64,000 bases of DNA, taken from NCBI RefSeq assembly GCF_024298845.1, contig NZ_CP101156.1, positions 3,038,001 to 3,102,000 of the forward strand, written 5' to 3'. The DNA is from Natronosalvus amylolyticus. Its GTDB lineage: Archaea; Halobacteriota; Halobacteria; Halobacteriales; Natrialbaceae. Under the pieces are notes generated by a model. It had not been told where the DNA came from. It saw only the letters and a program-made list of their open reading frames with translations, and did not search any database. A program made the translations under genes and the position numbers. Of the stretch, positions 9,805 through 45,409 are shown in pieces (positions within the stretch are counted from its first letter, which is position 1; every line of letters begins with the position of its first letter).

Positions 9805-9881
9805 ACGATCGCAGCAAAGCTGCTCCCTGCTTCGAACCCCACGTGAGCCGTTCCGCACGACTCACTGGCGTTCGTCGACGG

Positions 9882-9904
9882 AACGGGCACGATGGGATTC
9901 GAAC
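9882..9904. repeat. attL: Left attachment site: 23-bp copy of the tRNA-Arg 3' end
   Basis: These 23 bases are identical to 44056-44078, covering the discriminator, acceptor strand and T-arm of the intact tRNA-Arg(TCT) on the minus strand. Identity ends sharply at 9904. The integrase gene begins 165 bases inside. This is the standard signature of tyrosine-integrase insertion at a tRNA 3' end. Confidence 0.9.
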
Positions 9905-24158: not shown

Positions 24159-27100
24159 ATGCTCTCCGTCCCCCCACTTGTCGATAACACGAATAAAAAT
24201 CTCGAAGAAGTCTACAAAAAAATTATTCCGAAAATCGAAGAGGCGCGAATCGCGACTGGCTACTTCTATCTCTCCGGTTTCGACCTCTACAAGGAGGACT
24301 TGGGCAATCTAGCCGACCCCGACGAACTCGGTCATGCACCGCTTCGCATTCTCATGGGCCGTCAGACCAACCAGCAGACCGCCGATGAAATCGAGGAGGG
24401 ACAGAACCTTCGGGAAGCGTTCAAACAGGAACTTAAGGACGACATCGAGAGTCTGAACAACGCGCAACTCGGACGACTCAACCGGCTTCGAGAGTTTGTC
24501 GCGGAGGGAATCGTTGAAGTCCGTGTTCGAAACCCCGAGAACGGGTATTTTCACGCGAAGGGGGCAGCGTTCCGCGCCCCACTTGAAGAGGATGAGGGCC
24601 CCCCGTCAGAGGACGAAGAGGATACACGTGCCTGCGCAACTATCGTCGGTTCCTCAAACTTCTCGGCAAGCGGCCATCGGAATAACATCGAACTCAACCT
24701 CACCAGCCAAGACCGCTACCAGACCCAAAAGTTCGAAGAGTGGTACGATAATCAGTGGGCGAACGCCGAGGAATTCTCCGAAGAAATCATCCGCATCATC
24801 GAGAACAGCGACCAGTACAAGGAGTGGAAGGAGAAGCAAGAAAAGAAAACGTCCGATGGTGGGCCTGACGACGAAGAACTCGGAACCTATCTCGAACCCT
24901 TCGAACTCTACAAACTCCTCGCATACGACGAACTCAGCGGCAACGTCAGTGCCCGAGACAGCCCGCTATACTATTTCCAGAAACTCGGCTACGAGAGCGC
25001 ACGTGAGAAACTTTCCCAGTACGACGGCTGTATCATCTCGGACTCTGTTGGGCTCGGGAAGTCGTTCATCGGTGGTGAACTCCTCTACGACTATCGACAG
25101 CGCGGTGACCGCTGTCTCCTCATCGTCCCCGCGAACCTGACTGACCAGTGGGAAGACCTTCTCCAAGATGGGACTGACGAGGACGGTAATCCCTACTTCG
25201 GGCTGGAGATGGACGGAACTCACCTCGACGTGATGAGCGTCAGTAAGTTCCAAAATCTCACCTACGAGGAGGTTCAAGAACTCCGCGACGACTTCGACGT
25301 GCTGCTCATCGACGAGGCCCACCGCTTCCGTAACTTTGGGAAGTGGCGACCGAACCCCGACCACGATGACGACTACAAGGGGACGCGGCGGCACGCGAAC
25401 CTCCGTCAGTTGCGTGGAAAAACGATGATTATGCTGACCGCGACGCCCATCAACAACAGCGCTACCGACCTGAAGAACCTCATCAGCCTGTTTACGAGCC
25501 CGGAGGAGATTCGCAACAAGGCCTCACTTGACTTCGACGCTTTCGACGAGTACATCGAACTCGCGGAGACGCGCAAGCGCATCGCCGCTGGCAAAGAGGA
25601 GGTCTCCGACGAGAAGCAGCAACAAATCACCGAGCAGTTGCAGCGCCAGTCGAAAGAAATCTCGAACATCCTCAACGAAGTAATGGTTCTGCGGACGCGC
25701 AAGCATGTCAAGGACCTGATTCGGGACGACGAGGACTTCGAGATGAGTTTCAAACCACCGAAACTCAACAAGGAACAGTACTCACTGCCGCCCGCCTACC
25801 AGCCAATCTACCGGATGCTCCCCGACGTAATGGACGCACTCCATCTCCCGCACATCACGGTGAAGAACCCGAAGGCAGGGAGTACACTCAAAGCCCTCTA
25901 CAAACTGAACCTCCTCAAGCGACTGGAATCCTCAACATACGCGTTCGTGCAGTCCATCGAAACATTGCACCAGAGTGAGCGGCGACTGCTCGGTCTGCTG
26001 GAGGACCTGCCTGAAGACGAAGACATCGAAATGCTCCGTGCGGTACAGGATGGAGAAGCCCCTGCAACCATCGACGACTTCGTTGAAGGGAAGGACGCCG
26101 CCGAAGACCTCGAACAGACGCTCGAAGAATTCGGCTTCGACTCGACCGCCGTGCGTGCTGATGAGGGTGAATCGGAGACGCAGGACGAACTGGTAGACGC
26201 GACTGTTGGGGAGGTCAAGACCTACATCCGCGAGGACCTGACGCTGCTCGCGCACTTCCTCACGCAGTTCATCGGGGATGTGGCACGGGACACTGGAGAC
26301 GTAAGTGACCACGCAGTCACGGTACGACAGTGGCTCCACGACCACAACGCGGGCACACTCCCCGACGTACCGGAGGAAGAGATGAATCCCATCCTGTACC
26401 CGAGGAGCGACCTGACGGAAGTAGACTCCGCGACTCGGGACTTCTACGAGGCTGTGTTCTCCCTGCGCGAGTTCCGCGACCCGAAAATCGACCGCCTCGC
26501 AAACGTCCTCCAGAGTCACGATAAGAAAGTCCTCATCTTTACCCAGTATCGAGGAACCGCCGACTACGTGTATCGGACGCTCCGCGACAACCCGGACTCA
26601 CCGTTGACGGCGGAGAACAGCGCGGTCGTGAAAGGCGGCGATGAGAACAAGCAAGACATCATTCAGCGGTTCGCGCCGCAAGCATCCGGGTATCAGAGTA
26701 CGCTCGCAGAGTCGGACGAAACTGAACTTCAGTACGTCGTCGCGACCGACACGCTCAGCGAGGGCGTAAACCTGCAGGACGTTCAAGTCGCAGTCAACTA
26801 CGACTTGCCGTGGAACCCAATGCGCATCGTCCAGCGCGTCGGTCGTATTGACCGCATCGGGAGTACGGCGGAGAAGCACGTCCACAACTTCTACCCCGAC
26901 GGGGACATCGAGGCGGCCATTAAGCTGCTGAAGCGACTGCAAGCGAAAATCAACGATATCGCGCTCATCGTCGGGAAGGAGAACAACATCCTCGACCCGA
27001 ACGAGGACCAGATTCTGGAGAAGGCGGGCGTCGAGACGCAGAAGACCATCGGGGAACTGGAGGTCGAGGAAATCGAGGACTCGCTACGGAAGTCTCGCGA

Positions 27101-27971
27101 GGTTTCTGACGTGAATGAACTTGACGACACCTCGAAAAACCCGCTCCTGCGAAATGCTGGGAGTAATGAAGAGGCCGCGTACGACCGCTTCCTGCTCAAA
27201 CGCGAGTTAAACGAGGAGTACGGGCTCACGACTGACGACTTTGAGTACGCTGAGGATTTTTTCGACGACCCACCAGACGAGCGGGAGTTCCTCTACACGA
27301 ACGCCATCAACCACGACAAGGGACCGCGCCCCGGTTTGTTCGGGCTCGCACACCTCTGGTTCGACAATGAAGACGAGAACGCTCCGCTCGGACGGGTACG
27401 TCGGGCGTTCTACTACAAGCCGTTTAGCGATGACGTGAAAGAACGGTCCGTGCAAACGCTCTCAATCAGCCCATCTGTCGAGGGTGAGCCGGTTTCGGGG
27501 AATACCGACCACGTGCTGACGAACCGCGAAGAGATTGAGGAGGTACTCGACGACCGGCTCGAAGCGATACGTGAAGGACAGGTTGAGGGTGCGTTCAAGC
27601 AGGGCGATTCCTATTCAAAGGAGCAGGAGACGATTCTAGACTTCATCTCATACTACATCCAGCCGAACTTCGGGGACGACCCCTGCTCACACGAGGAATA
27701 TGAGACGATAGGTGAGTGGGCGGACGACCTTCACAGTCGGCTGAAGAACGTGAAACTCGGGAACACCGACGAGGACAGGATTCTCCGGGAGACGTTCCGG
27801 CACCACAAGGAGTACGAATCGTTCCCGGACTGGCCGCCCATCGAGTTCCTCGAAACGCTTGAAGTCTTCCTCGGGGAGAACATCGAAGCGTCTACCGAGT
27901 ATCAGGAGACGTTAGTCGGTGAGAGTAAGGTACACGCAGACCTTATCTGCTGGGGTATTATCGGGTCTTGA
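24159..27971 (+). CDS. PLD-nuclease / SF2 (SNF2-like) helicase fusion
   Basis: 1,270 residues. The N-terminal phospholipase-D-like domain shows the HxK motif (His132, Lys134, in GYFHAKGAAF) followed by VGSSNFSASGHRNN (about 163-176). The helicase core has Walker A VGLGKS (297-302), DEAH at 385-388, motif III ATPINNS and a C-terminal lobe with VATDTLSEGVNLQDV and QRVGRIDRIG (near 893). Long helical and C-terminal regions follow. This type is known from DISARM-like and other restriction systems, where the helicase tracks along DNA and the PLD domain may cut it. It ends 7 bases from the convergent methylase gene. Confidence 0.85.
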   Translation: MLSVPPLVDNTNKNLEEVYKKIIPKIEEARIATGYFYLSGFDLYKEDLGNLADPDELGHAPLRILMGRQTNQQTADEIEEGQNLREAFKQELKDDIESLNNAQLGRLNRLREFVAEGIVEVRVRNPENGYFHAKGAAFRAPLEEDEGPPSEDEEDTRACATIVGSSNFSASGHRNNIELNLTSQDRYQTQKFEEWYDNQWANAEEFSEEIIRIIENSDQYKEWKEKQEKKTSDGGPDDEELGTYLEPFELYKLLAYDELSGNVSARDSPLYYFQKLGYESAREKLSQYDGCIISDSVGLGKSFIGGELLYDYRQRGDRCLLIVPANLTDQWEDLLQDGTDEDGNPYFGLEMDGTHLDVMSVSKFQNLTYEEVQELRDDFDVLLIDEAHRFRNFGKWRPNPDHDDDYKGTRRHANLRQLRGKTMIMLTATPINNSATDLKNLISLFTSPEEIRNKASLDFDAFDEYIELAETRKRIAAGKEEVSDEKQQQITEQLQRQSKEISNILNEVMVLRTRKHVKDLIRDDEDFEMSFKPPKLNKEQYSLPPAYQPIYRMLPDVMDALHLPHITVKNPKAGSTLKALYKLNLLKRLESSTYAFVQSIETLHQSERRLLGLLEDLPEDEDIEMLRAVQDGEAPATIDDFVEGKDAAEDLEQTLEEFGFDSTAVRADEGESETQDELVDATVGEVKTYIREDLTLLAHFLTQFIGDVARDTGDVSDHAVTVRQWLHDHNAGTLPDVPEEEMNPILYPRSDLTEVDSATRDFYEAVFSLREFRDPKIDRLANVLQSHDKKVLIFTQYRGTADYVYRTLRDNPDSPLTAENSAVVKGGDENKQDIIQRFAPQASGYQSTLAESDETELQYVVATDTLSEGVNLQDVQVAVNYDLPWNPMRIVQRVGRIDRIGSTAEKHVHNFYPDGDIEAAIKLLKRLQAKINDIALIVGKENNILDPNEDQILEKAGVETQKTIGELEVEEIEDSLRKSREVSDVNELDDTSKNPLLRNAGSNEEAAYDRFLLKRELNEEYGLTTDDFEYAEDFFDDPPDEREFLYTNAINHDKGPRPGLFGLAHLWFDNEDENAPLGRVRRAFYYKPFSDDVKERSVQTLSISPSVEGEPVSGNTDHVLTNREEIEEVLDDRLEAIREGQVEGAFKQGDSYSKEQETILDFISYYIQPNFGDDPCSHEEYETIGEWADDLHSRLKNVKLGNTDEDRILRETFRHHKEYESFPDWPPIEFLETLEVFLGENIEASTEYQETLVGESKVHADLICWGIIGS

Positions 27972-27978
27972 TTAGAAC

Positions 27979-30900
27979 TTACTGTTGATGACTATCTTCA
28001 CTAAGTTGGTGGAACTTCTCAGAGACTAATTCAAAGTACTCATCATCCATAAACCGAGGATTGCTCACTTGATAGAAGTCGTTTAGGATAAATCCCACAT
28101 CTCCTTGGTTGAAACCGTAGGCATGGAAGGCTGCGGCATCCAGTTCTGCCTGAACATGACGACGCTCTTGCTTCGTTTTTACGGGTTCTGGATTTCCAAT
28201 TTTTCTCCGAATGTCAGCAAACTCTTCTCCATATGCATTTAACCGGGCTGCTCTAGACGAGATATATTCAAACCAGTCGTCTCCCTGTGTAAGACGGGGA
28301 ATTTGCGATTCCTCAATAGTATTCACGCTCATAGTTGTATCAAACTTTGTCCGGACAATATAATCAAAGGGAATACTGTTTAGAAGACCGAGTGCAAGGA
28401 ATAACTCTTCACCCGTGAAAATTGGGTCATACACGTCATGGAGAGTCTCCTTTGCAAGGTCTTCCCGCTCAGGATTAATCTCATATGGTCGAATGGTGGG
28501 ACATTTGTTGTGGCAGATTGCCCCTCTCGGGAGTGCTGCTGCGACCATACTCCGTTCGTTCGTACTATTCGACACATCACGGAATCCGATACGGTGAGAC
28601 GTACAGTCCAATAGTACGTCTTCCAGTTTTAGAGGGTCACCTCTATGGGTTTCGAGCAAATCGTTCACGAATCCGATTTGGGAACCACTTCCATCAAACG
28701 CTTCGTAAATCTCTTTCTTCAGTCTCTTCTGGTTTTTCTCTCTAATCCTCCTTTTGGCACTCTTTTTTGGGTTAGACTCTTCATCAACACTCCAATATTC
28801 AAATTCTTCAAGGTCCTCAATTTCATTATTGTAGGCAAATAGCCAAATATTCTTACCACCGTAGACAGGGTAATCCCCGTCTTCTTTCTCTTCAACGAAG
28901 TATTCCGTGTCTCGCGTACGGTGAAGTTCCTCACCGTATATGTTGATGTACCACTTCTCCTCCCTCTTTTCGCTAACTGGTGGATACTGGACAACCTTAT
29001 TGAGGACAGACACTTCTGACTGGTTTGTGATTTGAGGGAATATGGTCGTGACTGGTGAATACTTCTTTAGAATTTCTGCCGGAACATCTAGTAAGTTCTC
29101 TTTATTCCGTAGTATTTCTAAATCTCTCTGGAGGAATTTGGTATTAATGTGATTAGTTGTGCCAGAGTTCTTGAACGAGACTATCCCAAACTTGTATTGG
29201 TTGTGAATGTCGTCAAAGATTCCTTTATTCTCGAATCCGATGAGGTAGTCAAGTCTCACATCAGACAGTAAGTAATTACGTAAGTCGCTAGAAGAAGTAC
29301 CGATGAAGAGTTTCCCGGGTAAAACGAACGAAGTATAACCTTGCGTGCTTGCAAGGTCAAAAGACCGTTCTAAAAACAGCATCGACAGGTCTGTCGTACC
29401 TTGTCCTCCGACCTCGGGGCTCTGCAAGTTGTAGGCTGGGTTTTCCCCGTAGAATTTTCGGAGACGGTCGATATTATCCTTGTATTCTTCCCAACCTTCC
29501 GCAATTTCGTCATCCTCGCATAATTCTTCAATCCGTGCCTCCTTCTCATTCGCACTCAGCGATTTAAACCTCGGTTCGTACTGCCCGAAGTAGTCATTCC
29601 GGTCAGGAGTAAGAGCCCGCCACGGTGGATTTCCGAGAACAATGTCAAATCCACCATCCCGATAAACGGGGGCAAATTCGAGTACCCAATGGAATGGTGA
29701 GAAGGACCGAATATCCTCTATTGTCACGGCCTCTACACCGGAACTATGAAAGTCTCGAAGAGTTTTATTATTCAATTCGTCGCGGTATGATTTAATTCTG
29801 GATTCAGCGACCTTTCGCGCGTTTGCTACCTCCTCTGCTGTCGTCGCATCCCTATGTCGCTCAATCGCTTTGATAACGTCCTCGTAGAATTCTTTAACAC
29901 CGGTACCAGTCCCACCACCCCAATTGTTCAATGAGGCGTCGCCATCGTCATTTGTTTCGACTAATTGAGTATATCCGATGAGCGAGTTCCCCTGTCGAAT
30001 GTTGAAGTCGATGTTGGGGAGCGGTTCAACCTCGCCGGGCTCGTCCTCGATGTCTGCGACCATCGAAAGCCACAGCCGTAGTTTACAGATTTCGACCGCT
30101 CCTTCGTCGATGTCCACCCCGTAGAGGTTGTTCAGGATGATTGTGCGCTTCGCATACAGCGATGCGTTCCCCTTCCCAGACGCGATAGTGTCCAATTCGT
30201 CACGCGTTTGCGAGGAGAGTTCCCATCCCTTCCCCTCGTCTTCGAGGCGCTGAAAGAACTCGATACACTGCATATAGAGGTCGAGCAGCACCTCCTGTCC
30301 GGCGAGGAGGAACGCCCCACTACCGACTGCAGGGTCAAGGAGTTTTGCTTCCTTCAGGATGTCGTGGTAGAGCGTCTCGACGTGCCCAACATCGACGTTC
30401 TCGGTCGGAGCCTGATGAGTGACCATTCCTCCGTCAGCGATGGCTGTCGTATCAGCACTCGCGCTAGCCTCAGGGAAGCCGAATACATCGTCGATTTCGT
30501 CGTAAAATGCTCCAACGGTCTCGTTCAGTTGGTCGAGGAGGTAGGGATGGACCGTCCGACGAGCCATGAAGCCCGTAATTTCCTCGGGCGTGTAGTACGC
30601 GCCCATCTCCTTCTGGTTGACTGTCTGCTCGAAGATGTGCCCGAGGACAGCTGGGGAGAGGTTCTTCGGGTCGACGATGTCGAGCCGTTCGTCAACGTTC
30701 CAGTTCCAGTCGGAGAGAAAGTCGAGAATATCGTCGTACAGTTCGTTCGTCTCTTTAGCGGAGTTGCCCAGTTTCGCGTCTTCGAACTCCTCCTCAATGG
30801 GGTTCTTCGCGAACAGACCACCGTTCAGGTATGGGAGTTTGCCGAAGTCCGGGTTCTGCTTGTCCTCCGCGAGGTAGTCGAAGAACAGCGGCGCGTAGAA

Positions 30901-31578
30901 CTCCTCGTAGCGGTCCTCGCCATCGTCCACAACCTCAGCAGGCTGCTCGTGAAGATAGTCTGGGTTCCGGTCGAGCAGACGTTTCTCTTGGATGAAGTAG
31001 AGGAAAATCATTCGGTCGAGAATGACCTGAACGTACCGCTGCTTCGCGTCACCTCGGTCGTCGGGGATGCCGGAGACCTCCTGCACAAGGTCGGTGCGCA
31101 GGCTCTCGAACTGCTGGTAGAACTCCTTGACGACCTGCCGGGTGTCGTAGAGCGTGTCGTAGATGGCCGCGGACGAACCGTACTCGATGGAGTTCAGTTT
31201 CTGCAGGATAGTGTTCTTCTCGCCGCTCTCAGAGCGAAATTGCTCCTTGTTAAACGAGAGTTTCTGATGCTTGATTCGACCGTGCTGTTGGCCTTCCCAA
31301 CTGCGGACGCGCGTGATGAAGGTGAAGCCCTCGTAGTCGTTGGTGGCGACAAGGTTCGTGTGACGCGTGCGATTTTGTGGCTTGAAGTCGGTCGCTGACT
31401 CGCCGGGTCCGGCCTCAACGATGGTGACGAACTCGTCATCTGCGAGTTGGAGAACGAGTTCGTGGTCTTCCCCAAGGTTCGGTCGTGGTTTGAGCCCGCG
31501 TTTCTCAAATGAATCTGCGATGTCCTGTAGAGAGTCCCAGCCCGCAATGTCAGACGCCGTAATTTGCTGGAGAGCCAT
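27979..31578 (-). CDS. Eco57I/PglX-like adenine-specific DNA methyltransferase
   Basis: 1,199 residues. Motif I is LLDPAVGSGAFLL (about residue 414) and motif IV is the N6-adenine signature GNPPW (about 649). Between them are DIDEGAVEICKLRLWLSMVA and an Asn-rich segment. The C-terminal ~350 residues resemble the target-recognition part of type IIG enzymes. The N-terminus is acidic; no clear nuclease motif was seen there, so cleavage probably rests with the neighbouring PLD and HSDR_N proteins. It is convergent with the helicase and divergent from the DUF262 gene (109-base gap). It probably methylates host DNA to mark self. Confidence 0.85.
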   Translation of the reverse strand: MALQQITASDIAGWDSLQDIADSFEKRGLKPRPNLGEDHELVLQLADDEFVTIVEAGPGESATDFKPQNRTRHTNLVATNDYEGFTFITRVRSWEGQQHGRIKHQKLSFNKEQFRSESGEKNTILQKLNSIEYGSSAAIYDTLYDTRQVVKEFYQQFESLRTDLVQEVSGIPDDRGDAKQRYVQVILDRMIFLYFIQEKRLLDRNPDYLHEQPAEVVDDGEDRYEEFYAPLFFDYLAEDKQNPDFGKLPYLNGGLFAKNPIEEEFEDAKLGNSAKETNELYDDILDFLSDWNWNVDERLDIVDPKNLSPAVLGHIFEQTVNQKEMGAYYTPEEITGFMARRTVHPYLLDQLNETVGAFYDEIDDVFGFPEASASADTTAIADGGMVTHQAPTENVDVGHVETLYHDILKEAKLLDPAVGSGAFLLAGQEVLLDLYMQCIEFFQRLEDEGKGWELSSQTRDELDTIASGKGNASLYAKRTIILNNLYGVDIDEGAVEICKLRLWLSMVADIEDEPGEVEPLPNIDFNIRQGNSLIGYTQLVETNDDGDASLNNWGGGTGTGVKEFYEDVIKAIERHRDATTAEEVANARKVAESRIKSYRDELNNKTLRDFHSSGVEAVTIEDIRSFSPFHWVLEFAPVYRDGGFDIVLGNPPWRALTPDRNDYFGQYEPRFKSLSANEKEARIEELCEDDEIAEGWEEYKDNIDRLRKFYGENPAYNLQSPEVGGQGTTDLSMLFLERSFDLASTQGYTSFVLPGKLFIGTSSSDLRNYLLSDVRLDYLIGFENKGIFDDIHNQYKFGIVSFKNSGTTNHINTKFLQRDLEILRNKENLLDVPAEILKKYSPVTTIFPQITNQSEVSVLNKVVQYPPVSEKREEKWYINIYGEELHRTRDTEYFVEEKEDGDYPVYGGKNIWLFAYNNEIEDLEEFEYWSVDEESNPKKSAKRRIREKNQKRLKKEIYEAFDGSGSQIGFVNDLLETHRGDPLKLEDVLLDCTSHRIGFRDVSNSTNERSMVAAALPRGAICHNKCPTIRPYEINPEREDLAKETLHDVYDPIFTGEELFLALGLLNSIPFDYIVRTKFDTTMSVNTIEESQIPRLTQGDDWFEYISSRAARLNAYGEEFADIRRKIGNPEPVKTKQERRHVQAELDAAAFHAYGFNQGDVGFILNDFYQVSNPRFMDDEYFELVSEKFHQLSEDSHQQ

Positions 31579-31687: not shown

Positions 31688-33457
31688 ATGAGTGCAAGTC
31701 AGATTGACGCAAAGGAAGAGTTTCTGAGCAAACTCTACGACGACTACCACTACAAGATTCCTAAGTTCCAACGCCCGTTTTCGTGGACTGAGGAACATTT
31801 CGTGGACCTCATCGACGACCTTACTGATGCATACGATGTCGGGCGAGATGCTCACGGGACGCTGCTCGACGAAACAGGCGAACTAAAGAAGCAGACTCTC
31901 GATGCGTACGAGCCCTATTTCCTCGGGAGCATCATCCTGAACGATGGGAGTGACTCCGGTGAACGCTCTGACATCATCGACGGACAACAACGATTGACCT
32001 CCCTCGCGATTCTGATTGCCGTTCTGAGAGACTTAGTAAATGATGAACCACGAGCGAATTCGCTCGGCGGACTCATTTACGAAGAGAGCGACCCAATTAA
32101 GGGGAAATCAGAGACGGTACGGCTCGAAATTCGAGAACGCGACCGCGACTTCTTTGACAAGCACATTCTCACCCGGGGAGCGACCGAGGACGCCCCCGAC
32201 CCTTCAACGGGTGACAGCGAACCCAAGCAGAATATCCTGCAGGCCATTCAAACCTTCCGGGAGGAACTGGCCGAATGGCAAGACGAAGAATACGGCGACC
32301 TCGGTGACTTCGCGACCTATCTCACACTCCGCGTCGTGATGGTTCGCATCTCGACGAACTCACTAAGTTCTGCATTCCGGCTGTTCAACGTCACAAATGC
32401 GCGAGGGATGCCGCTTAACAATGCTGACCTGCTGAAGTCGGAGAACCTGAGCCACATTGACGATGACGACAAGCGGGAGGAATACCAGCGAAAGTGGGAG
32501 GATATGGAAGAAGAGGTGGGGAACGAGGGGCTGGAGCGGTTTATCGGTTTCATGCGCCATATCATCGTGAAGGAAAAGTCTCAGAAATCGGTCTACGACG
32601 AGTTCAAAGACCGCGTGTTCCCCGAAGATAACACGTTCAGGGGTGAGAGGTTCGTCGATTATCTAGAGACTGTCTTCGATGTCCATCGACATCGTATCTA
32701 TAATGCAGAGTTAGATGCTGCCTCCTACGCGGAGGAGGTCTACTACCACAATTTGGTTTCTCTGATGCGTGACTTCTATCCTTCCGATGAATGGATGGTC
32801 GCACTCATCCAATTCGATGCGAAATTCGACGATGACTCTACTCTGTTGTCGTTTGTTGAGCAACTGGAGCGCCGACTCACTGTTGACTGGCTCACGGGCT
32901 CGTCGAACACAGGTCGGTATAGTCGTGTATACTCACTTCTCCGCGAAATTGAGGAGGCCAGTACGCCAGAAGACGTTCTCAATCTCCCGATGCTCAACGA
33001 GAAAATCGTGGAGGAGAGCGAGGCGTTCGAGAACGCACTTGACCTCAGTAACTTCTACCGGAAAGGGAACTATCAGTGGCCGAAGTACATCCTCATGCGG
33101 ATTAACGGTGAGCGATTCGACAATCGTAACTCGAAGGTGGAGTACGGCAATAACGTCACTATCGAACATATTCTCCCCCAGACGCCAAACAACGACTATT
33201 GGCTGATTAGATTCGACGATGAGCACTGGCGGGACACGTGGACTGACCGTATGGGGAACCTCGTACCTCTCGACGGGCGGAAAAACTACAAGGTGAGTAA
33301 CAAGCCCTTCACCGCGAAGTATGAGGAGTACTTCAAGAAGAAGAGTGACTTCCCGCTCGTCAATGAACTCGAAGAGTACGATGAGTGGACACCCGAAAAT
33401 CTCCGGGAACGGCACGAACGCCTAAAACAGGAAGCTAAGGAAATCTGGCTTTCATAA
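31688..33457 (+). CDS. DUF262-DUF1524 fusion (GmrSD-like restriction protein)
   Basis: 589 residues. The N-terminal DUF262 (GmrS) domain has IPKFQRPFSWTEEHF and the nucleotide-binding signature DGQQRLTS (98-105). The C-terminal DUF1524 (GmrD) domain has the His-Me/HNH-like NVTIEHILPQTPN followed by DRMGNLVPLDGRKNYKVSN. Known members (GmrSD, BrxU, SspE) are NTP-driven nucleases that attack modified or foreign DNA. It shares an upstream region with the divergent methylase gene. It may be part of the same system or an independent type IV enzyme. Confidence 0.85.
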   Translation: MSASQIDAKEEFLSKLYDDYHYKIPKFQRPFSWTEEHFVDLIDDLTDAYDVGRDAHGTLLDETGELKKQTLDAYEPYFLGSIILNDGSDSGERSDIIDGQQRLTSLAILIAVLRDLVNDEPRANSLGGLIYEESDPIKGKSETVRLEIRERDRDFFDKHILTRGATEDAPDPSTGDSEPKQNILQAIQTFREELAEWQDEEYGDLGDFATYLTLRVVMVRISTNSLSSAFRLFNVTNARGMPLNNADLLKSENLSHIDDDDKREEYQRKWEDMEEEVGNEGLERFIGFMRHIIVKEKSQKSVYDEFKDRVFPEDNTFRGERFVDYLETVFDVHRHRIYNAELDAASYAEEVYYHNLVSLMRDFYPSDEWMVALIQFDAKFDDDSTLLSFVEQLERRLTVDWLTGSSNTGRYSRVYSLLREIEEASTPEDVLNLPMLNEKIVEESEAFENALDLSNFYRKGNYQWPKYILMRINGERFDNRNSKVEYGNNVTIEHILPQTPNNDYWLIRFDDEHWRDTWTDRMGNLVPLDGRKNYKVSNKPFTAKYEEYFKKKSDFPLVNELEEYDEWTPENLRERHERLKQEAKEIWLS

Positions 33458-33515: not shown

Positions 33516-34496
33516 TTAGCCAGAATCGGCACTATGGTCTGCAATTTGATGGTGGTTCGCGAGATACTGCGGTCCAATGTCGTGTTCTTCTCGTACTAGA
33601 AGTCGTCTCCCATCTATTTCAGACTCGTATTGATGCGTGATTTCCAGTGTTTGAGGGTCCACTGTTACCATTCTATTTTCGAAATCGACGTGGTGATTTG
33701 GACAGACAACAACCATGTTCTCTGGTTTGTCTGGCCCATCTTCCCCGAGTGGCATCAAGTGATGAACTTCTGAATAGCCACTCTCAGGACTACTTTGACG
33801 TCGCTCACCACAAATCTGGCAGCGGTCATCATACAGTCGTTTAAGTTCTCGGACGAGGGCATCATCACGAATTACTTCTTCTCGATAGGCCTCGCGGCGT
33901 TCGGTGACAGAAGTACCTTCTGACAACTGTGTATTGGTGTTCTCCTTAGTCTCGGTTTTCTCGCTTTCAGTAGCCGCGGAGGTTGCGAGGTCGTGTCCCT
34001 TCTGTGTTAACTGATTTACGTTCCCAGACCGCTCAATATAGCCTAGAACCTGTAGCCATTCCCGGTGGCGAGTAGCGACACCGACTGATTCCATATTTAT
34101 ATCTTCAAATTCGCTGACCAACACATCTCTAATCTCCTTGTCAGTGAGCGGGGTTTGCAGTAGTTGTTCAAGGGTTGTGTCGAAACCTTTCACATTCGAC
34201 TGGAGGGCTCTGTATAGGACATCTAGGTCGGTAGACTCGATATATTGTTGTCCTCTCCGTCCAATTATGACTGCATCCTCATTTTGTTCAATCAATTCGA
34301 TAGCTTCTAAGAAGCCCAAATGATGGTCAATGGCATCCCTGCTTGTAGCGTTTGTATTTTCCAAAATCCAGTCTTTTGCCTCTGACCGGGAGGGAGACTC
34401 CATCTCAATATAGGAAAGGAAGCGCTGGAGTAGCTGAAGGCGTCGACTGGTCCCTCCGTAGAATCGGTCGGTGGTCAAACGTCGGCCATCGGCCAT
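33516..34496 (-). CDS. HNH endonuclease with N-terminal winged-helix-like domains
   Basis: 326 residues from MADGRRLTTDR. The N-terminal ~220 residues look like two helical winged-helix-type modules (RFLSYIEMESPSRSEAKDWI; LGYIERSGNVNQLTQKGHDL), separated by a Thr/Glu-rich linker from a C-terminal HNH domain. That domain holds CQICGERR, VHHLMPLG and MVVVCPNHHVDFEN. An in-frame start at 34715 would overlap the GIY-YIG gene and lacks family character. The start 64 bases after that gene supports a shared operon. Probably a restriction or homing-type nuclease. Confidence 0.75.
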   Translation of the reverse strand: MADGRRLTTDRFYGGTSRRLQLLQRFLSYIEMESPSRSEAKDWILENTNATSRDAIDHHLGFLEAIELIEQNEDAVIIGRRGQQYIESTDLDVLYRALQSNVKGFDTTLEQLLQTPLTDKEIRDVLVSEFEDINMESVGVATRHREWLQVLGYIERSGNVNQLTQKGHDLATSAATESEKTETKENTNTQLSEGTSVTERREAYREEVIRDDALVRELKRLYDDRCQICGERRQSSPESGYSEVHHLMPLGEDGPDKPENMVVVCPNHHVDFENRMVTVDPQTLEITHQYESEIDGRRLLVREEHDIGPQYLANHHQIADHSADSG

Positions 34497-34560
34497 TTGA
34501 TGCAAATTCACACCATGGGCATATGATACTACGTCAATCGAGTGGTCGAAATAGGAGGTC

Positions 34561-35454
34561 TCAGGGAAGGCGTTCCTCGTAACCAAACTGAGCGAGTGGC
34601 ACGTCATTCTCGGCGAGATAGTGAGCCCCGATGAGGTCCGTCTCGACTTCGCTTCGCTTGTGCGGCGCGTCAAGGTGAACCCCCTCAGCATAAGTAAAGT
34701 AAGCGTCTTCTCCAAACGTCTGTTCGTGGTTGTACAATCGGGACGCGATATTACTAGATTCCCCGATGTAGGCTAATGCTGGTCCGTCTGGGCAATCTTC
34801 GTACCAAATTCGGTAGAGTCCGTTTTTGGGTGGGTTGGCGTCGAGTCGCTCTTGCAGTTCATATGGTTCCGACCAGTTGAGCCCCATCCACGTTGGGGAC
34901 GTGGTTTTTTTCCAATTCTGCCATTCTGGAGGCTCTATTCCACTTACACAATTCGGTTCAACCTCGTCTGAATCCAGTGGGCCACCTTTGTAGGCAGGGT
35001 CATTGTAGCTATAGCACGACTGCTTATATCCGTCAAGCATCCGTCCAAAGTTAGCAGTTGGACTTCGTCTCGTTTCTCGCCGGTGTAGCGCGATTAATGC
35101 CTCCTCCGTCCCTTTACGGTCTTGCTCGCTATCGGCGTAGTCTGGTGTTGTGTATGAAACCTCAAGTTCGGAACCTACAGCGTCTCGAACCGCCCACAGA
35201 CAGGGGGCCGCTGTATGTGGGTCGCGGTAAGGCATTTCGTCTGCGAACGTTCCACGTGCAAGACTTTGGATGCGCCTCCGTGTATCCCCAGATTCACCAA
35301 TGTATTCGAGAAAATCCCGTTCCTCCTTCTGATGCCGGATTCGGTAAATTCCCGGCTCTTTTGGCACTGTAGTGAAGGACCCTGCGTTGAGTGGCATCCA
35401 GTCAGACCAGTCGAGGTTCAGCCATTGAGGAGAATGAAACTCAGTTTCTGTCAT
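34561..35454 (-). CDS. Tandem GIY-YIG nuclease domain protein
   Basis: 297 residues with two GIY-YIG cores. The first is GIYRIR (35-40) and YIGES (51-55); the second is GLYRIW (212-217) and YIGES (229-233). Each is preceded by a similar W-x-L/M-x-L-x-W motif (WLNLDWSDW and WMGLNWSEPY), indicating an internal duplication. Each has the following arginine. Such duplication within one chain is uncommon, since most GIY-YIG nucleases have one domain. It could let one monomer nick both strands. Its neighbours are an HNH nuclease and a winged-helix regulator on the same strand. Confidence 0.75.
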   Translation of the reverse strand: MTETEFHSPQWLNLDWSDWMPLNAGSFTTVPKEPGIYRIRHQKEERDFLEYIGESGDTRRRIQSLARGTFADEMPYRDPHTAAPCLWAVRDAVGSELEVSYTTPDYADSEQDRKGTEEALIALHRRETRRSPTANFGRMLDGYKQSCYSYNDPAYKGGPLDSDEVEPNCVSGIEPPEWQNWKKTTSPTWMGLNWSEPYELQERLDANPPKNGLYRIWYEDCPDGPALAYIGESSNIASRLYNHEQTFGEDAYFTYAEGVHLDAPHKRSEVETDLIGAHYLAENDVPLAQFGYEERLP

Positions 35455-38966: not shown

Positions 38967-39135
38967 CGGTTTTGTTGTTCAAATTTCTCACATTGGGAGT
39001 CTATTGTAGGACTCCCAAACTCAACCGTGATTTCGGCCTGATAACCCCCTGATTTCACCTCGAAAATAGGCTTCTCTGCAGATTCCCCGACTCACACAAC
39101 ACCTTAGTACTCTATTGACATATTATAATACACAC

Positions 39136-39315: not shown

Positions 39316-39422
39316 ACACCTCTGACAAGCTCCTCGTCAAATACGCTGAGATATACCGGCAGAAACACGGCGAACTGCCAGAATTGCTCGAAGGGCAGGT
39401 CAACGAGGTGGTCGGACGATGA
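39312..39422 (+). CDS. Tiny protein, 36 residues
   Basis: The frame reads MNTSDKLLVKYAEIYRQKHG, then ELPELLEGQVNEVVGR. Its ATG overlaps the preceding stop (ATGA) and its own end overlaps the next start, which supports translation. Helical; role unknown. Confidence 0.5.
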   Translation: MNTSDKLLVKYAEIYRQKHGELPELLEGQVNEVVGR

Positions 39423-39505
39423 GACCCAACGTACGCTTGCTCGTGGCTGCCTTGATATTCAAAACCGGGCTCGGGCTCACGATGTTCGGGGTGTTCTGGA
39501 CATGA
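39419..39505 (+). CDS. Tiny membrane peptide, 28 residues
   Basis: The frame reads MRPNVRLLVAALIFKTGLGL, then TMFGVFWT, a single hydrophobic segment. ATGA overlaps occur at both ends. Probably membrane-inserted; role unknown. Confidence 0.45.
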   Translation: MRPNVRLLVAALIFKTGLGLTMFGVFWT

Positions 39506-39750
39506 GTGAAAATTTCACCCTCCAAGTCCACGACCGACGAGACCTCCGACGAGCACTCGACCGACTCTCACTCGAGCACGATGACCTCTGGGACGCCGAC
39601 TCGTGTGACATTGGCGAAGCAATCGTGCGATTAGCGCTGGATAACCCCGACCTGCTGCTCCAAAAGCTCGGCCAAGTGGCTGGCGAAAATAATTCAGCCG
39701 TATTAGAGGGGTCGGATGCTCACTTACCAACAGGTGATAGCAATGAGTGA
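39502..39750 (+). CDS. Small acidic helical protein, 82 residues
   Basis: The frame reads MSENFTLQVHDRRDLRRALD, then EAIVRLALDNPDLLLQKLGQ. A strand followed by helices is compatible with a ribbon-helix-helix fold. Its end overlaps the recombinase start by 8 bases (ATGAGTGA), so it is probably a partner or regulator of that recombinase. Confidence 0.5.
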   Translation: MSENFTLQVHDRRDLRRALDRLSLEHDDLWDADSCDIGEAIVRLALDNPDLLLQKLGQVAGENNSAVLEGSDAHLPTGDSNE

Positions 39751-40363
39751 AACCGTCGTACACCGTCACTTTACGTTGGCACAGATAGACGACCTGCGAG
39801 ACGCTGCGCATAGTCGAGACGCACGCTATGATTCGTCGCTGCGGGATGAGGTCTATGTAGTACTCTCAACCGACCTTGGAACCCGGGTAGGCGAGACCGT
39901 CCCACTGACTCACCAAATGTTTGACCTCGAAAACGGGGAAGTAACGCTTCCTGCTGGAATCCAGAAGGACTATCCAGTAGACGGTAAGTCGCCAAAGGCT
40001 GCGACGCTCCGACTGGACCCGTACGGCCACTTCGGGACGGTCAGACTGCTCAGAGTGTACTTCAAAGAGCTTGAGGACGATGGTCACGACTACCTGTTTC
40101 CGAGCAGGCAGAGCGACCACATGTCGACGGAGGCCGCTCGAGACATCGTGCGTAGGTTAGCTGTCGAAGCCGACGTTTCGCCCCGGAGAACAGACGGACA
40201 GCCTGCCGACCCGTCAGAAGCGCATCCACACGCATTCCGGCACTCACTCGCCAACTACATGCTGGCGGACGAGTCCACACGATTAGTCGACGTGCGCAAC
40301 AGACTCCGTCACCGCAGCATCACGACGACCGAACGAGTCTATGAGCACTTCCAACGCCGATAA
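39743..40363 (+). CDS. Tyrosine recombinase, catalytic domain only (206 residues)
   Basis: The catalytic set is visible: Arg48 (LGTRVGE), His163 and Arg166 (HAFRHSLA), His190 (RLRHRSITTT) and Tyr200 (ERVYEHFQRR). The usual N-terminal core-binding domain is missing, as in short plasmid and viral recombinases. It is translationally coupled to the 82-residue protein. The last codons, including the tyrosine, are repeated at 42390-42437, so the 3' end of this gene may itself have served as a recombination site. Confidence 0.85.
   Translation: MSETVVHRHFTLAQIDDLRDAAHSRDARYDSSLRDEVYVVLSTDLGTRVGETVPLTHQMFDLENGEVTLPAGIQKDYPVDGKSPKAATLRLDPYGHFGTVRLLRVYFKELEDDGHDYLFPSRQSDHMSTEAARDIVRRLAVEADVSPRRTDGQPADPSEAHPHAFRHSLANYMLADESTRLVDVRNRLRHRSITTTERVYEHFQRR
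40332..40353. repeat. 22-bp repeat inside the recombinase 3' end (left copy)
   Basis: AACGAGTCTATGAGCACTTCCA-type sequence covering the catalytic Tyr200 codon. It matches 42406-42427 with a single base difference. The two direct copies bracket 2.05 kb containing the Mrr cassette. Confidence 0.7.
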
Positions 40364-40399
40364 TTCTATTTATCTACAGTTAGAGTATTCGACAACTCA

Positions 40400-41044
40400 A
40401 TGAGCCTGAGTCTGTTCCAAGCAGTATCTCTAACTATTGCTGGCGTTTCTGTTGTAATTTCGTATATCAAATACCGGGAATATAAATACGAAAAGCAACG
40501 GGACATCTACCAATCCATCGTTGGCAATGAATATGAGTTCGAAATCACAGGTGAGGATGAAACCAACTGCTTCGAGGTCGTGAACATCGATGTGAAGAGT
40601 GGCCGTCGTCCGTGGAAGTGGCATACACTGGTTGTAATTGAATTTGATATCGAGGAATTCCCGTGGGATTCTCGTGATGATGATGTCGCTAATGATGCGG
40701 CTAAAGACCTCGCATGGACGTTCAACCTGCTAACAAAGGAAACACCAGAGATACGAGGGGCCGAACTATTTGAATCCTACAAAGCACCTGCTCTAACAGT
40801 CGTCTTTCCATCTACCGATTTATTCGCTATAACCGATTTTTTGCGGAAAACACAGACAACTATAGGTCACGTGTTCTGGCATTACGAAAGCGACGAAATG
40901 GCTGAGATGCCGATGAGACTTCATGCCCATTATTTGGAGGAACACTTGGAGTTGCTTCTACAAAACACCGACTCTGACCGTGAGGATTCAATGACCACAC
41001 CTGTTTCATGGGTGGAAAATATAATGAGACACCATACAATATAG
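40400..41044 (+). CDS. Membrane-anchored hypothetical protein, 214 residues
   Basis: One N-terminal transmembrane helix (LFQAVSLTIAGVSVVISYI) is followed by a basic KYREYKYEKQR stop-transfer and a soluble acidic domain. No catalytic motif was seen. Its stop lies 23 bases before the Mrr-type nuclease gene, so the two probably act together; the first gene may anchor or sense. Confidence 0.5.
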   Translation: MSLSLFQAVSLTIAGVSVVISYIKYREYKYEKQRDIYQSIVGNEYEFEITGEDETNCFEVVNIDVKSGRRPWKWHTLVVIEFDIEEFPWDSRDDDVANDAAKDLAWTFNLLTKETPEIRGAELFESYKAPALTVVFPSTDLFAITDFLRKTQTTIGHVFWHYESDEMAEMPMRLHAHYLEEHLELLLQNTDSDREDSMTTPVSWVENIMRHHTI

Positions 41045-41066
41045 GTAAAGAGTACATCCAATTTTC

Positions 41067-41984
41067 ATGAATTTAGAGAATATTCAGTGGAGAGAGTTTG
41101 AAGAGTTAATTGCCGTTTTGTGGGAGAAATTTGGCTACAAAACTAGGATTACGCCGCCCGGAAGGGACGGAGGGATAGATGTCATTGCCGAGCGGAGCGT
41201 GCCATATCAAGAAAGAATATTAATTCAGGTAAAGAACTACTCAATTGATAATAAGATTGGGGTGAAATTCGTACGAGAATATAGTTCGCTTCTTCATCGA
41301 CCAAATGTTGATGGAGTTGTCATTGTGACTACTGGATTCTTCACTAAGCAAGCACGGGATGAAGCCAGAGAGATTGGGGTAAAATTAGTTGACCGCAGCG
41401 AGATTGAACGATTTATTGATGAGCATATATCTGAACTCCAACTATCAAAATTCACCCGAGAGCCAAATGGTTACAAAGGCGTGAACGATGCTGCTGAACT
41501 TGAAACATCTGAGAAGCCGACCGAGGTAGACCGGGAATCATCGAATTCAGAAAGTAGGACATTATCAGGGTATGATAGAGACAACGACTTCCCAAAAATA
41601 GCAGAAGACGACCCGGTACCTGATGTAACGGTACCCACATTTATTCGTGATGGGATTAGAGAACACCTTCTCAGCAACTCCCAGTACATGAATGCATTCT
41701 CGGGAAATGATAAAAACCCAATCTACCAATATATCTCGACTATACATCAGATTCCTATTAGTGGCCAAGTTAACCGAGACGCTATCATGGAAATTTGTGA
41801 TAAGTACAATCTTCAATACATAGACAATTCAGAACAGAACATTGCCGTGAGATGGGAAAAGTATTGGAATGATTCTACACTAAACGTCAATTTAGAACAT
41901 GATTCGATGATTGCTACCAAGTTTATTAATGAGATTTGCGAAAAATTGGATAATGTGGAATTAAAACAAACACCATCTGAATAG
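41067..41984 (+). CDS. Mrr-type restriction endonuclease
   Basis: 305 residues. The N-terminal Mrr-cat domain has WREFEELIAVLWEKFGYKT, then GGIDVIAE (Asp38), and ILIQVKNY with the Q-x-K pair (Gln54, Lys56). This is the PD-(D/E)xK variant of type IV enzymes that cut methylated DNA. VDGVVIVTTGFFTKQARDEA follows. The C-terminal ~150 residues are unknown and may be target-sensing. If the methylase upstream modifies host DNA, this enzyme would need a different specificity. Confidence 0.8.
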   Translation: MNLENIQWREFEELIAVLWEKFGYKTRITPPGRDGGIDVIAERSVPYQERILIQVKNYSIDNKIGVKFVREYSSLLHRPNVDGVVIVTTGFFTKQARDEAREIGVKLVDRSEIERFIDEHISELQLSKFTREPNGYKGVNDAAELETSEKPTEVDRESSNSESRTLSGYDRDNDFPKIAEDDPVPDVTVPTFIRDGIREHLLSNSQYMNAFSGNDKNPIYQYISTIHQIPISGQVNRDAIMEICDKYNLQYIDNSEQNIAVRWEKYWNDSTLNVNLEHDSMIATKFINEICEKLDNVELKQTPSE

Positions 41985-42119
41985 TGGGGGAGTGTTTTCC
42001 ACACCATCCACTGCAAAGGTAGTATTATTTCTGTCAAGCATGTTCGCTCTCGCCCACCCCCAGCGGCTTTTCCTTTTGCGTGGATAGCTACTTTTAGTTA
42101 GAATAAACAATATCTTCGT

Positions 42120-42389
42120 ATGACTGATTGGTCACCAAAAGAGGAAATGGGGTTGTTCGGATACCTCAAGTTTAAATTTGGATTTTGGGTTCAGGTATCG
42201 TCATTGCCGGGATGGGTGTACAAAGCTAATGACGGCTACTACGAAGGATACATCGATAAGCACGGTCAAAGGCCGTATGACGTTGAGAATATCTATACTG
42301 GAGACAATCTTGAATATAAGATATTCTATAGGACAGTAGGAGCACCGGGGCACATCAACGAAGAATACTATGCACGGCTCAACCGATGA
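42120..42389 (+). CDS. Small hypothetical protein, 89 residues
   Basis: The frame reads MTDWSPKEEMGLFGYLKFKF, then NDGYYEGYIDKHGQRPYD. It is aromatic-rich and unrecognised. Its stop is in frame with, and directly followed by, the recombinase-end remnant. Confidence 0.45.
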   Translation: MTDWSPKEEMGLFGYLKFKFGFWVQVSSLPGWVYKANDGYYEGYIDKHGQRPYDVENIYTGDNLEYKIFYRTVGAPGHINEEYYARLNR

Positions 42390-42437
42390 AAAACGAGTCA
42401 GACTAAACGAGTCTACGAGCACTTCCAGAGGCGTTAA
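42390..42437 (+). pseudogene. Duplicated C-terminus of the tyrosine recombinase
   Basis: The frame reads KTSQTKRVYEHFQRR and stops at 42435-42437. The last nine residues before the stop are the same as in the recombinase ending at 40363, including its catalytic tyrosine. No upstream part of a recombinase is present. This is the far end of a 2-kb insertion at the recombinase 3' end. Confidence 0.7.
42406..42427. repeat. 22-bp repeat (right copy) bracketing the Mrr cassette
   Basis: Direct repeat of 40332-40353 with one substitution (T to C, silent in the Tyr codon). Confidence 0.7.
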
Positions 42438-42880
42438 CGACGCTCTCGTGGTGGTTGTGTCTGGAAGTGCCCCTCTGGGTCCACGTCGTCATCGACTACT
42501 TGTGCGGCGATGAGTGCCCTATCGCTCCATACTGTAGCGAATTTCGCCTTCCGGTCGCCGCAAACGATGTACTTGCTATTGTGCTTTGGATTGGTCGACG
42601 ACAGGTTTTGATGACGTCCCCACGTGACTGAGATGTACTTGTCCGAGTCAATACGAGGATAGATGCGCATTAACTGGTCCCCTTCCCATGGTTTGAATGC
42701 GTTATTGTCCCACCATAGTGGAAGAGTGTCGTGCTTCTTCAATCCGCTGAGGTCGAGTTTATTTCTGAATTCAGCCATGCACTGCCCGTTCTGAGATTTA
42801 CTTTTATAACCTCTTCGACGGAGGATGGATGAATGGTCACACAATACAGTAAAATACCCAACCTCGCCTAAATCAGCCAT
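42434..42880 (-). CDS. Hypothetical protein, 148 residues
   Basis: The frame begins MADLGEVGYFTVLCDHSSIL and includes YISVTWGRHQNLSSTNPKHN and a conserved-looking KYIVCGDRKAKFATVWSDRA. No family recognised. It starts 7 bases after the stop of the 61-residue gene upstream and probably forms an operon with it. Its last codons overlap the recombinase relic on the opposite strand. Confidence 0.55.
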   Translation of the reverse strand: MADLGEVGYFTVLCDHSSILRRRGYKSKSQNGQCMAEFRNKLDLSGLKKHDTLPLWWDNNAFKPWEGDQLMRIYPRIDSDKYISVTWGRHQNLSSTNPKHNSKYIVCGDRKAKFATVWSDRALIAAQVVDDDVDPEGHFQTQPPRERR

Positions 42881-42886
42881 AGAATG

Positions 42887-43072
42887 TCAATCGGGACGCA
42901 CGACGGACACGTCTTTAACGGAGACCGATGTCCAGTCGTCAGTTAAAAATTGAAACTGGTTGTGACACGCATGTATTACGGTATCTAGGTCGTCGCTCGG
43001 AGTGCCTGTAACGGACACGAACACGGTATCGTCCGACTGCATCATCTCGCATCGAGGTCCTTGTTCTGACAT
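42887..43072 (-). CDS. Small hypothetical protein, 61 residues
   Basis: The frame reads MSEQGPRCEMMQSDDTVFVS, then VIHACHNQFQFLTDDWTSVS. Unrecognised, acidic and beta-rich; first gene of a two-gene operon. An ATG one codon earlier (43075) is equally possible. Confidence 0.45.
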   Translation of the reverse strand: MSEQGPRCEMMQSDDTVFVSVTGTPSDDLDTVIHACHNQFQFLTDDWTSVSVKDVSVVRPD

Positions 43073-43204
43073 CACATCTGGATTTCGTGCCTAGAATGAT
43101 AAACGGGTGAAAATATTTCGGATTGGATATTAAAGAATAAAACTCATAGATATTTAAGTACATTATCAATGGAACCAAGGTTATCCAGAAAAAAGAAATC
43201 TCAC

Positions 43205-43963: not shown

Positions 43964-44059
43964 CCGTGATGCGGGATAACGATATCACCACGGTTCGAGA
44001 GTAAAATTCAGACCGAACCCCGAGCCCTCTGTGATACCTGACCGTGATGCGGAGTAACG
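43964..44059. repeat. 18-bp direct repeat next to the right attachment site
   Basis: CCGTGATGCGG followed by GATAACG at 43964-43981 recurs as CCGTGATGCGG followed by AGTAACG at 44042-44059 (16 of 18 identical). The second copy runs into the tRNA end. Such repeats beside an att core are candidates for integrase arm sites. Confidence 0.45.
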
Positions 44060-44078
44060 GGCACGATGGGATTCGAAC
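44056..44078. repeat. attR: Right attachment site: 23-bp repeat in the tRNA-Arg gene
   Basis: Identical to 9882-9904. It covers the 3' end of the intact tRNA-Arg(TCT), which the integrated DNA abuts. Confidence 0.9.
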
Positions 44079-44132
44079 CCACGACCGTCGGATTAGAAGT
44101 CCGACGCTCTATCCAGACTGAGCTACGTGCCC
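44058..44132 (-). tRNA. tRNA-Arg (anticodon TCT)
   Basis: 75 nt, minus strand. The acceptor pairs GGGCACG with CGTGCCC. D-arm GCTC...GAGC, anticodon stem TCGGA/TCCGA with loop CTTCTAA (anticodon TCT), and T-arm GTGGG-TTCGAAT-CCCAT are all present. The discriminator is G and CCA is not encoded. No intron. Its 3' end is the element's integration target. Confidence 0.95.
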
Positions 44133-44175
44133 TCGAGTCCTTCTCGTCGTCCAATCGGCATAAGCAATGGGGATT

Positions 44176-45330
44176 TTATTCGCTCTCGAACCCAACCCGT
44201 TCGGCGTCAGCGAGACACCGCTCAGTGGCCCCCTCGAGGTCCGGCTCCCGGACGCGTTCGCCGTCGCGAATCAGTGGCTCGAGCAGCGGCTCACCGTCCT
44301 GGGGCGCTGGTTGATCAGCGAGGCGAACTTCGTGGCCGCCGTCGGGCGTTCGATACACCTGTTTGTCCCCGGAGAGCTTCCCGCGTTTGGCGATCGGCTC
44401 GCCCTCAACTTCGACCAGGTCGAGACTGAAATCGACGCTGTCGGCACCCGTGATGTAGCTTCCGACGCCGAACCCGTCGGCGATGTCTCGAACCGAGCGA
44501 ATCGAGTCGGGCGTGAGCCCCCCGCTACAGAAAATGTCGACGTCTTCGTGACCGCGGGCGTCCAGCTCCCAGCGCACTTCGCGGAGAATGTGGCGGAAAT
44601 CACCGCGTCTCGAGCCGGTGGTATCGATGCGGACGCCGTCGAGGGAATCGCCGAGCGTCTCGGCTGCGAGGAGGCTCTCTTCGTGTTCGTCCCAGAAGGT
44701 GTCCACGAGGGCGATTCGGGGAACGTCCGCATCGACCGCCTCGTCGAACGCTCGCCAGGCGGCGTCCTGGTTCCCAGCGCCGAAAATCAACAGGAGCGCG
44801 TGGGGCATCGTTCCGCCAGCCTCACGCTCGAGGATGTCGCCAGCGGCGACGTGAGAAAAGCCGTCCAGGCCGGCCAACAGGGCCGCACGTTCGACCGTCG
44901 CCGCGATAGCGGGATGGACGTGGCGTGCCCCAAAGGAGAGGACGAGGGAGTCGGGCGCCGCCAGTCGTGTCTCGAGGGCGGCCGTCGCGAAGCCGCTGGG
45001 CTGGGAGAGAAAGCCAAGCAGCGAGGTCTCGAGTTCGGCGAACTCGAGGTAGGGGCCTTCGATACGCAGGACTGGCCCGCCATCGAATAGCTGTCCTTCG
45101 GGCAGCGCATCGACGTCGACGTCCCGGCCTTCGAAGAGCGTCCCAACGTCCTCTATCCCGGCGAACACCTCGAAAGAGCCCGTGGGGAACTGATCGGCGG
45201 TCACTTCGGCGACGACGTGTGGGTTTCGACCCGCGTGCTCGAGCGTTTCTCTGGTGCGCTCGAAGTAGGCATCGGTGGCACGCCCCTCGAGAATGGCCTC
45301 GTCGGAGACGATTCCGAACGGATTCGACAT
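44176..45330 (-). CDS. pncB: Nicotinate phosphoribosyltransferase
   Basis: 384 residues. It shows DAYFERTRETLEHAGRNPHV, the acidic FSFGARHVHPAIA region and VDIFCSGGLTPDSIRSVRDI, which match archaeal type II NAPRTases. It converts nicotinate plus PRPP to NaMN in NAD salvage. Length is normal for the archaeal family. A nicotinamidase-like gene lies 3.7 kb away on the other strand (49015), so the region carries two consecutive salvage steps. Chromosomal in composition. Confidence 0.88.
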   Translation of the reverse strand: MSNPFGIVSDEAILEGRATDAYFERTRETLEHAGRNPHVVAEVTADQFPTGSFEVFAGIEDVGTLFEGRDVDVDALPEGQLFDGGPVLRIEGPYLEFAELETSLLGFLSQPSGFATAALETRLAAPDSLVLSFGARHVHPAIAATVERAALLAGLDGFSHVAAGDILEREAGGTMPHALLLIFGAGNQDAAWRAFDEAVDADVPRIALVDTFWDEHEESLLAAETLGDSLDGVRIDTTGSRRGDFRHILREVRWELDARGHEDVDIFCSGGLTPDSIRSVRDIADGFGVGSYITGADSVDFSLDLVEVEGEPIAKRGKLSGDKQVYRTPDGGHEVRLADQPAPQDGEPLLEPLIRDGERVREPDLEGATERCLADAERVGFESE

Positions 45331-45409
45331 ACGTTGGCTTTCTGGCGCGAGGCGTTAAAGGTCTCCCTTCGGCGTTACTGTCCGATGCCATGCACGCGTT
45401 GTCTTTCGG

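Follow-up and report, generated by a model that had tools for sequence, protein, structure and literature searches.

The question raised by this locus is how a nuclease gene came to lie between the end of a recombinase gene and a second copy of that end. The window analyzed here (64,000 nucleotides of contig NZ_CP101156.1 of Natronosalvus amylolyticus) belongs to a 4.2 Mb genome in 5 contigs. A 34-kb island occupies the tRNA-Arg(TCT) gene at 9882–44078. It is bounded by an exact 23-bp repeat with two sites in the window: attL (9882–9904), a copy of the tRNA-Arg 3′ end, and attR (44056–44078), inside the tRNA-Arg(TCT) gene (44058–44132). The empty site is seen in a genome of the same genus, where window positions 9831–9904 and 44056–45360 align to one continuous stretch with a 23-bp overlap. 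A full-length tyrosine integrase (10070–11062, forward strand; Pfam Phage_int_SAM_1 and Phage_integrase) adjoins attL and, judging from its domains and position, probably acts for the whole island. A short direct repeat near attR (43964–43974 and 44042–44052) possibly represents arm-type sites of this integrase. The island is rich in defense-type genes, including an HKD/Snf2 helicase (24159–27971), a type IIG restriction-methylation gene (27979–31578), a GmrSD-type nuclease (31688–33457) and an HNH protein (33516–34715).

The recombinase repeat and its contents

The recombinase in question, R, is a small tyrosine recombinase of 206 residues (39743–40363, forward strand). It matches Pfam Phage_integrase over residues 12–203 (E 1.1e-18; 68 bits against a cut-off of 27.1), and the invariant R, H and Y columns are present in an alignment of 8 recombinase members. 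We considered R as the tRNA-Arg integrase of the island and dropped this assignment, since the full-length integrase sits beside attL.

The end of R is repeated about 2 kb downstream. The direct repeat (40327–40363 and 42401–42437) matches at 30 of 37 positions (81%). As the initial annotation had stated, 22 nt within it (40332–40353 and 42406–42427) are identical save for one silent difference, TAT/TAC. The recurrence had been placed at 42390–42437; the repeat itself is real, but recombinase-like sequence begins only at about 42401. Allowing up to 3 mismatches, the 21-mer ACGAGTCTAYGAGCACTTCCA is confined to these two places in the window (mean in shuffled sequences, 0.01). A degenerate version of the motif matches exactly twice across the genome, with no further site at 1 mismatch.

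Three forward-strand reading frames lie between the copies, in agreement with the membrane protein, Mrr nuclease and small protein originally listed. The first (40400–41044) encodes a predicted membrane protein with one hydrophobic segment by Kyte-Doolittle analysis and no confident family in profile searches. The second (41067–41984) is an Mrr-type nuclease (Pfam Mrr_cat, E 3.2e-28; 98.6 bits against a cut-off of 21). The third (42120–42389), an open reading frame only, encodes a small protein with no confident Pfam family. The 206-aa frame of R is intact beside this cassette, in line with the restoration on one side that had been proposed.

The far copy (42401–42437, forward strand) is recognized as a relic of a recombinase 3′ end by repeat match, tail comparison and exact runs, and it matches the recombinase end at 9 of 9 residues, stop included. 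On its left, the core is flanked by only about 13 nt of recombinase-like sequence; to the right, the two copies encode the same QRR-stop by different codons (CAA CGC CGA TAA and CAG AGG CGT TAA). Over 29 nt, the relic matches the tail of a cassette-free sister gene (L018, below) at 26 positions and the tail of R at 24 (the latter counted by eye), while over the full 37 nt it matches each at 30; the score of its fit to the sister tail was reached by 0 of 1309 null windows. Because its right half uses other codons and fits the sister tail better over 29 nt, the relic is, on these comparisons, more than a simple copy of the R tail.

Relatives with and without the cassette

The family search gave matches in 113 of 391 genomes; 80 of these regions were retrieved, together with further loci, and these do not comprise all matches. 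Cassette-free relatives exist. L018, from Natronoglomus mannanivorans (the same stretch as G046/L031), and L067 (in G116) are sited at tRNA-Arg(TCT), like the window, and their recombinases are 79% and 84% identical to R, respectively. Each has a single recombinase 3′ end followed directly by a convergent gene, which is different in each. Both share with the window the tRNA-proximal stretch and a conserved promoter-like region (42780–42880, reverse strand), which bounds a variable slot; this region is also common to L052 (below) and is found in L173 at up to 2 mismatches. In the window, the slot holds a convergent gene (42434–42880, reverse strand; true start probably 42778) whose stop overlaps that of the relic, and another gene takes its place in L018, L067 and L052. 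Farther along, a 62-aa gene (42887–43075, reverse strand) is kept in L018 (79%) by sequence match. On the 5′ side of R, a small gene (39502–39750, forward strand) is kept in L018 and L052 (54% and 48% by tblastn), and window positions 39324–39669 have a DNA match in L067 (86%).

Only one close homologue of the Mrr protein was found among the 391 genomes (59–60%, full length, in G125), the next best being about 45% or less and partial. Its gene follows an R-family recombinase gene after 45 bp (locus L052), at tRNA-Val; the membrane protein and the small protein are absent from this locus. Behind the Mrr gene, TTCAGCGGCGCT, part of a recombinase-like end minus one base, abuts a convergent gene. 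This second relic is modest, with 12 nt exact and a score equaled by 2 of 2733 null windows. The locus L173 (in G075), also at tRNA-Val, has no Mrr gene there: its recombinase is followed by 22 bp, a convergent gene, and then a gene that by eye resembles the next gene of L052. Thus, states with and without the cassette occur in two lineages, window versus L018 and L067 at tRNA-Arg, and L052 versus L173 at tRNA-Val. No pair differs by the cassette alone, because the convergent gene beside the slot also varies. The presence of the cassette in at least two lineages may reflect separate uptake, or an ancestral cassette lost by the sisters.

Searches for further forms of the cassette gave little. 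The tail pattern occurs in 4 of 391 genomes, namely the window's own, G125, G051 and G071 (a 3-mismatch site); the match in G051 belongs to another family member, and no relic was found there. The 391 genomes yielded neither a free circle nor any further cargo carrying this tail. Plasmid searches returned no match to the Mrr protein (E 1e-40) or to the membrane protein, and viral contigs contained no relative of R and no exact tail pattern. A search of genome contigs with R gave two relatives. A DNA query of tail plus membrane gene matched only a Haloterrigena recombinase fragment. This fragment (L032 in G063; Haloterrigena sp. KLK7 plasmid NZ_CP149789.1, 46523–46669) retains only the last ~49 codons of a relative recombinase, and the DNA right after its stop is similar to that after the recombinase of L072.

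The point at which the cassette joins the recombinase gene can be located from the pattern of similarity among these loci. In the body of the protein, the window recombinase is 83% identical to L067 and 73% to L052, which is itself 83.5% identical to L173. The last 7 codons depart from this order: window and L052 are identical at 21 of 21 nt, compared with 17 of 21 for window and L067 and 16 of 21 for L052 and L173. Of the codons that specify the same residue in window and L052, 55 of 139 are identical in the body and 8 of 9 at the very end, with 3 of 18 in the stretch immediately preceding it. The longest exact run between these two genes is a 30-nt tail, the next longest being 16 nt, and L052 and L173 share an exact run of 21 nt ending in GAGTCTATGA. 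Since L052 is L173-like through GAGTCTATGA and then identical to the window for an overlapping 30 nt, the join can be narrowed to a 10-bp interval in the 3′ end of the recombinase gene. The homologous interval in R is 40335–40344 (forward strand), and the recombinase tail and noncoding DNA that follow (40345–40380, forward strand), nearly identical to L052, appear to be borne by the cassette. After the stop, window and L052 match at 15 of 17 nt by eye and 20 of 29 by script, and this noncoding part may be a promoter. Codon bias and a shared promoter could also have raised the tail identity.

Proposed exchange and competing explanations

From these sequence comparisons we consider it reasonably probable that the Mrr cassette was joined to the 3′ end of R by reciprocal crossing-over in roughly the final 30 bases of the recombinase gene. 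The cassette, presumably as a circular intermediate, would supply its own last recombinase codons and a promoter-like stretch, and the recombinase gene would stay open because the cassette carries these codons. The original last codons of the host gene would remain on the far side as the relic against the convergent gene. The exchange would be reversible, with gain and precise loss of the cassette as one reaction in opposite directions, and the loci compared fit either. Behind this proposal stand the observed repeat, the two forms in each of two lineages, a switch in similarity that falls within 10 bp in one lineage, and a relic that matches the tail of a cassette-free sister.

R or a relative is the putative catalyst, and the recombinase gene's 3′ end would be its secondary site; we hold this part tentatively, and somewhat doubt it. 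A palindromic 12-8-12 core at 38990–39021, 0.75 kb 5′ of R, is the one such site, at up to 3 mismatches, in both the window and the genome. Comparable palindromes occur within 800 bp upstream in 51 of 80 family loci versus downstream in 9 of 80, so the upstream palindrome is probably the cognate site of this small recombinase family; it also marks the left boundary of shared DNA at many family loci. This site weighs against the proposed explanation, as does the finding that recombinase 3′ ends are not core-like across the 27 loci tested (mean rank 0.44). The 3′ end of R scores 12 against the upstream core, the gene mean being 7.2. The two have GAGTCTAT in common, which is a lead only, since another stretch of the R gene scores higher (13). 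Over those 27 loci, the family as a whole gave no support for reading the 3′ end as a duplicate of the upstream core. In L052, the upstream core is degenerate and, as read from the alignment, has no match to the recombinase 3′ end. The short L052 relic with its lost base, the equal 37-nt match of the window relic to both tails, and the failure to find a circle or another cargo with that tail weigh on the same side.

The loxP-like 12-8-12 palindrome is seen with ~200-aa haloarchaeal recombinases at L084–L099, L035, L036, L063, L128, L130 and other loci. It lies about 105 bp ahead of the start of the catalytic domain, and many of these recombinases have a third half-site at the gene start.

The initial annotation had read the locus as site-specific insertion of defense cargo at the recombinase end. 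Insertion at that point agrees with the cassette-free L018 and L067, the Mrr cassette at the same codons in L052, and its absence from L173. Site-specificity is less well served, given the upstream position of the probable cognate site and 3′ ends that do not resemble it.

A search for other cargo at the same codons had also been suggested. A downstream, same-strand copy of the last 8 residues and stop (at least 6 of 9 matching) is present at only 3 of 81 loci, the window, L063 and L064, a scarcity that also counts against the explanation above; the controls, 0.24 Mb of upstream and 1.05 Mb of opposite-strand sequence, contained none. A DNA test over 81 loci likewise placed only these three clearly above the rest. 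The 81-locus counts are restricted to loci with a full-length recombinase match: the DNA test includes L065, a duplicate of L019, whereas the residue test leaves it out and takes in L173. The palindrome count above and the convergent-frame count below use 80 loci, without L065 and L173, and loci in all counts are not independent because several family members are near-identical. At L063 the cargo is a TumE/HVO_A0114-type toxin-antitoxin pair, and the recombinase on the far side lacks internal parts, retaining model positions 147–199 and an internal remnant. At L064 a 267-aa protein is followed by an 80-aa reading frame covering model positions 115–199. Both have cargo followed by a copy of the 3′ end, but that copy forms part of a longer, decayed recombinase.

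These two of the three loci make a serious rival of a different history, in which a whole related element was joined by homologous recombination within the recombinase genes and the second recombinase then decayed to its last codons. Fragments of 3′ ends are common in the family, although the search favors the better conserved 3′ half. In the window, however, no recombinase remnant was detected between the Mrr gene and the relic (41985–42400), and window and L052 would both need to have lost all but the last codons. The recombinase genes of the two lineages also share few long exact runs (at most 11 nt for L067 and L173, and 18 nt for L018 and L173), and such short runs are a poor substrate for homologous recombination. 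We regard tandem integration and decay as possible, although unlikely, for the window.

Insertion by microhomology or illegitimate joining in a region of rapid gene turnover, with no dedicated process, is less probable again. The convergent gene that fills the space from the recombinase 3′ end to the conserved promoter differs from locus to locus among L018, L067, the window and L052, so gene turnover there is high. Among 32 pairs of relatives at ≥84% identity, which are not independent, homology ends within 20 nt of the stop in 19; 11 pairs stay homologous for more than 200 nt, and the other 2 diverge at 21–200 nt. At 18 of 80 loci, a convergent reading frame (≥60 aa) terminates no more than 25 bp from the stop; the same holds at 281 of 2370 random positions. 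Such insertion does not readily account for two lineages that differ in a cassette at the same codons, with the frame kept and the ends reciprocal. Finally, a chance match or unrelated fragment, which the weak L052 relic taken alone would allow, is very improbable and largely refuted for the window relic by its 0.01 expected sites, 0 of 1309 null windows and 9 of 9 residues with stop.

Two pairs of loci, L090/L091 (G141/G181) and L096/L097 (G331/G380), share ~11 kb at 99.97% and 99.09% identity, respectively, between genomes of different families, indicating recent transfer or contamination.

If the exchange through the recombinase end is site-specific, archaeal islands could trade defense genes while the recombinase stays whole and in place, and this would offer a testable explanation for the gathering of Mrr and toxin-antitoxin genes beside recombinases. 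Even if it is not site-specific, the two with/without pairs show the end of the recombinase gene to be a recurrent joining point for cargo.

Comparison with known systems

In literature searches, no account of cargo entering at the 3′ end of a recombinase gene came to light, which does not prove that none is in print. Several known systems share part of the arrangement. In integrons, gene cassettes are recombinase-less cargo beside a resident tyrosine recombinase, and here too recombinase-less cargo lies beside a tyrosine recombinase that stays in place. The likeness is one of gene arrangement: at most one Mrr cassette is seen per locus, and R scores 23.7 bits against the integron-integrase model TIGR02249 (cut-off 265), placing it outside that family. 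A broader and rather speculative reading, also drawn from sequence, which we think unlikely at present, is an integron-like platform for cassette capture in haloarchaea, built on a minimal tyrosine recombinase whose own gene 3′ end serves as attachment point. Its cassettes would be recombinase-less defense or toxin-antitoxin cargo carrying the last codons, leaving the recombinase intact after every exchange. In the pdif modules of Acinetobacter, small units of cargo are mobilized by a tyrosine recombinase whose gene lies elsewhere; unlike these, the cassette has no flanking dif-like pair that we could see, and the genome has one core.

The Int2 proteins of halophages phiH1, phiCh1 and ChaoS9 are ~40% identical to R. 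Upstream palindromes are present in phiH1 and phiCh1, a convergent gene lies at the int2 stop, and ChaoS9 has an extra gene there. Among these loci (L180, L181 and L182 for phiH1, phiCh1 and ChaoS9), the int2 stop of phiH1 lies in a 4-bp overlap with a VapC-family gene, whose homologue overlaps int2 likewise in phiCh1. In ChaoS9, a homologue of phiH1_250 lies between VapC and int2; phiH1_250 itself is located elsewhere in phiH1.

Archaeal suicidal (SSV-type) integrases carry the att site within the integrase gene (PMC8371274). The likeness is a recombination point within the recombinase's own coding sequence that is translated into protein, as presented there (PMC8371274). Here the gene is restored rather than split, with its 206-aa frame intact beside the cassette, the point lies at the extreme 3′ end, and the inserted DNA has only a recombinase tail. 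The window locus also resembles gene-restoring island integration at tRNA 3′ ends, of which the 34-kb island itself is an example: incoming DNA replaces the 3′ end of a gene and a copy is left on the far side. The difference is that the target here is the recombinase gene.
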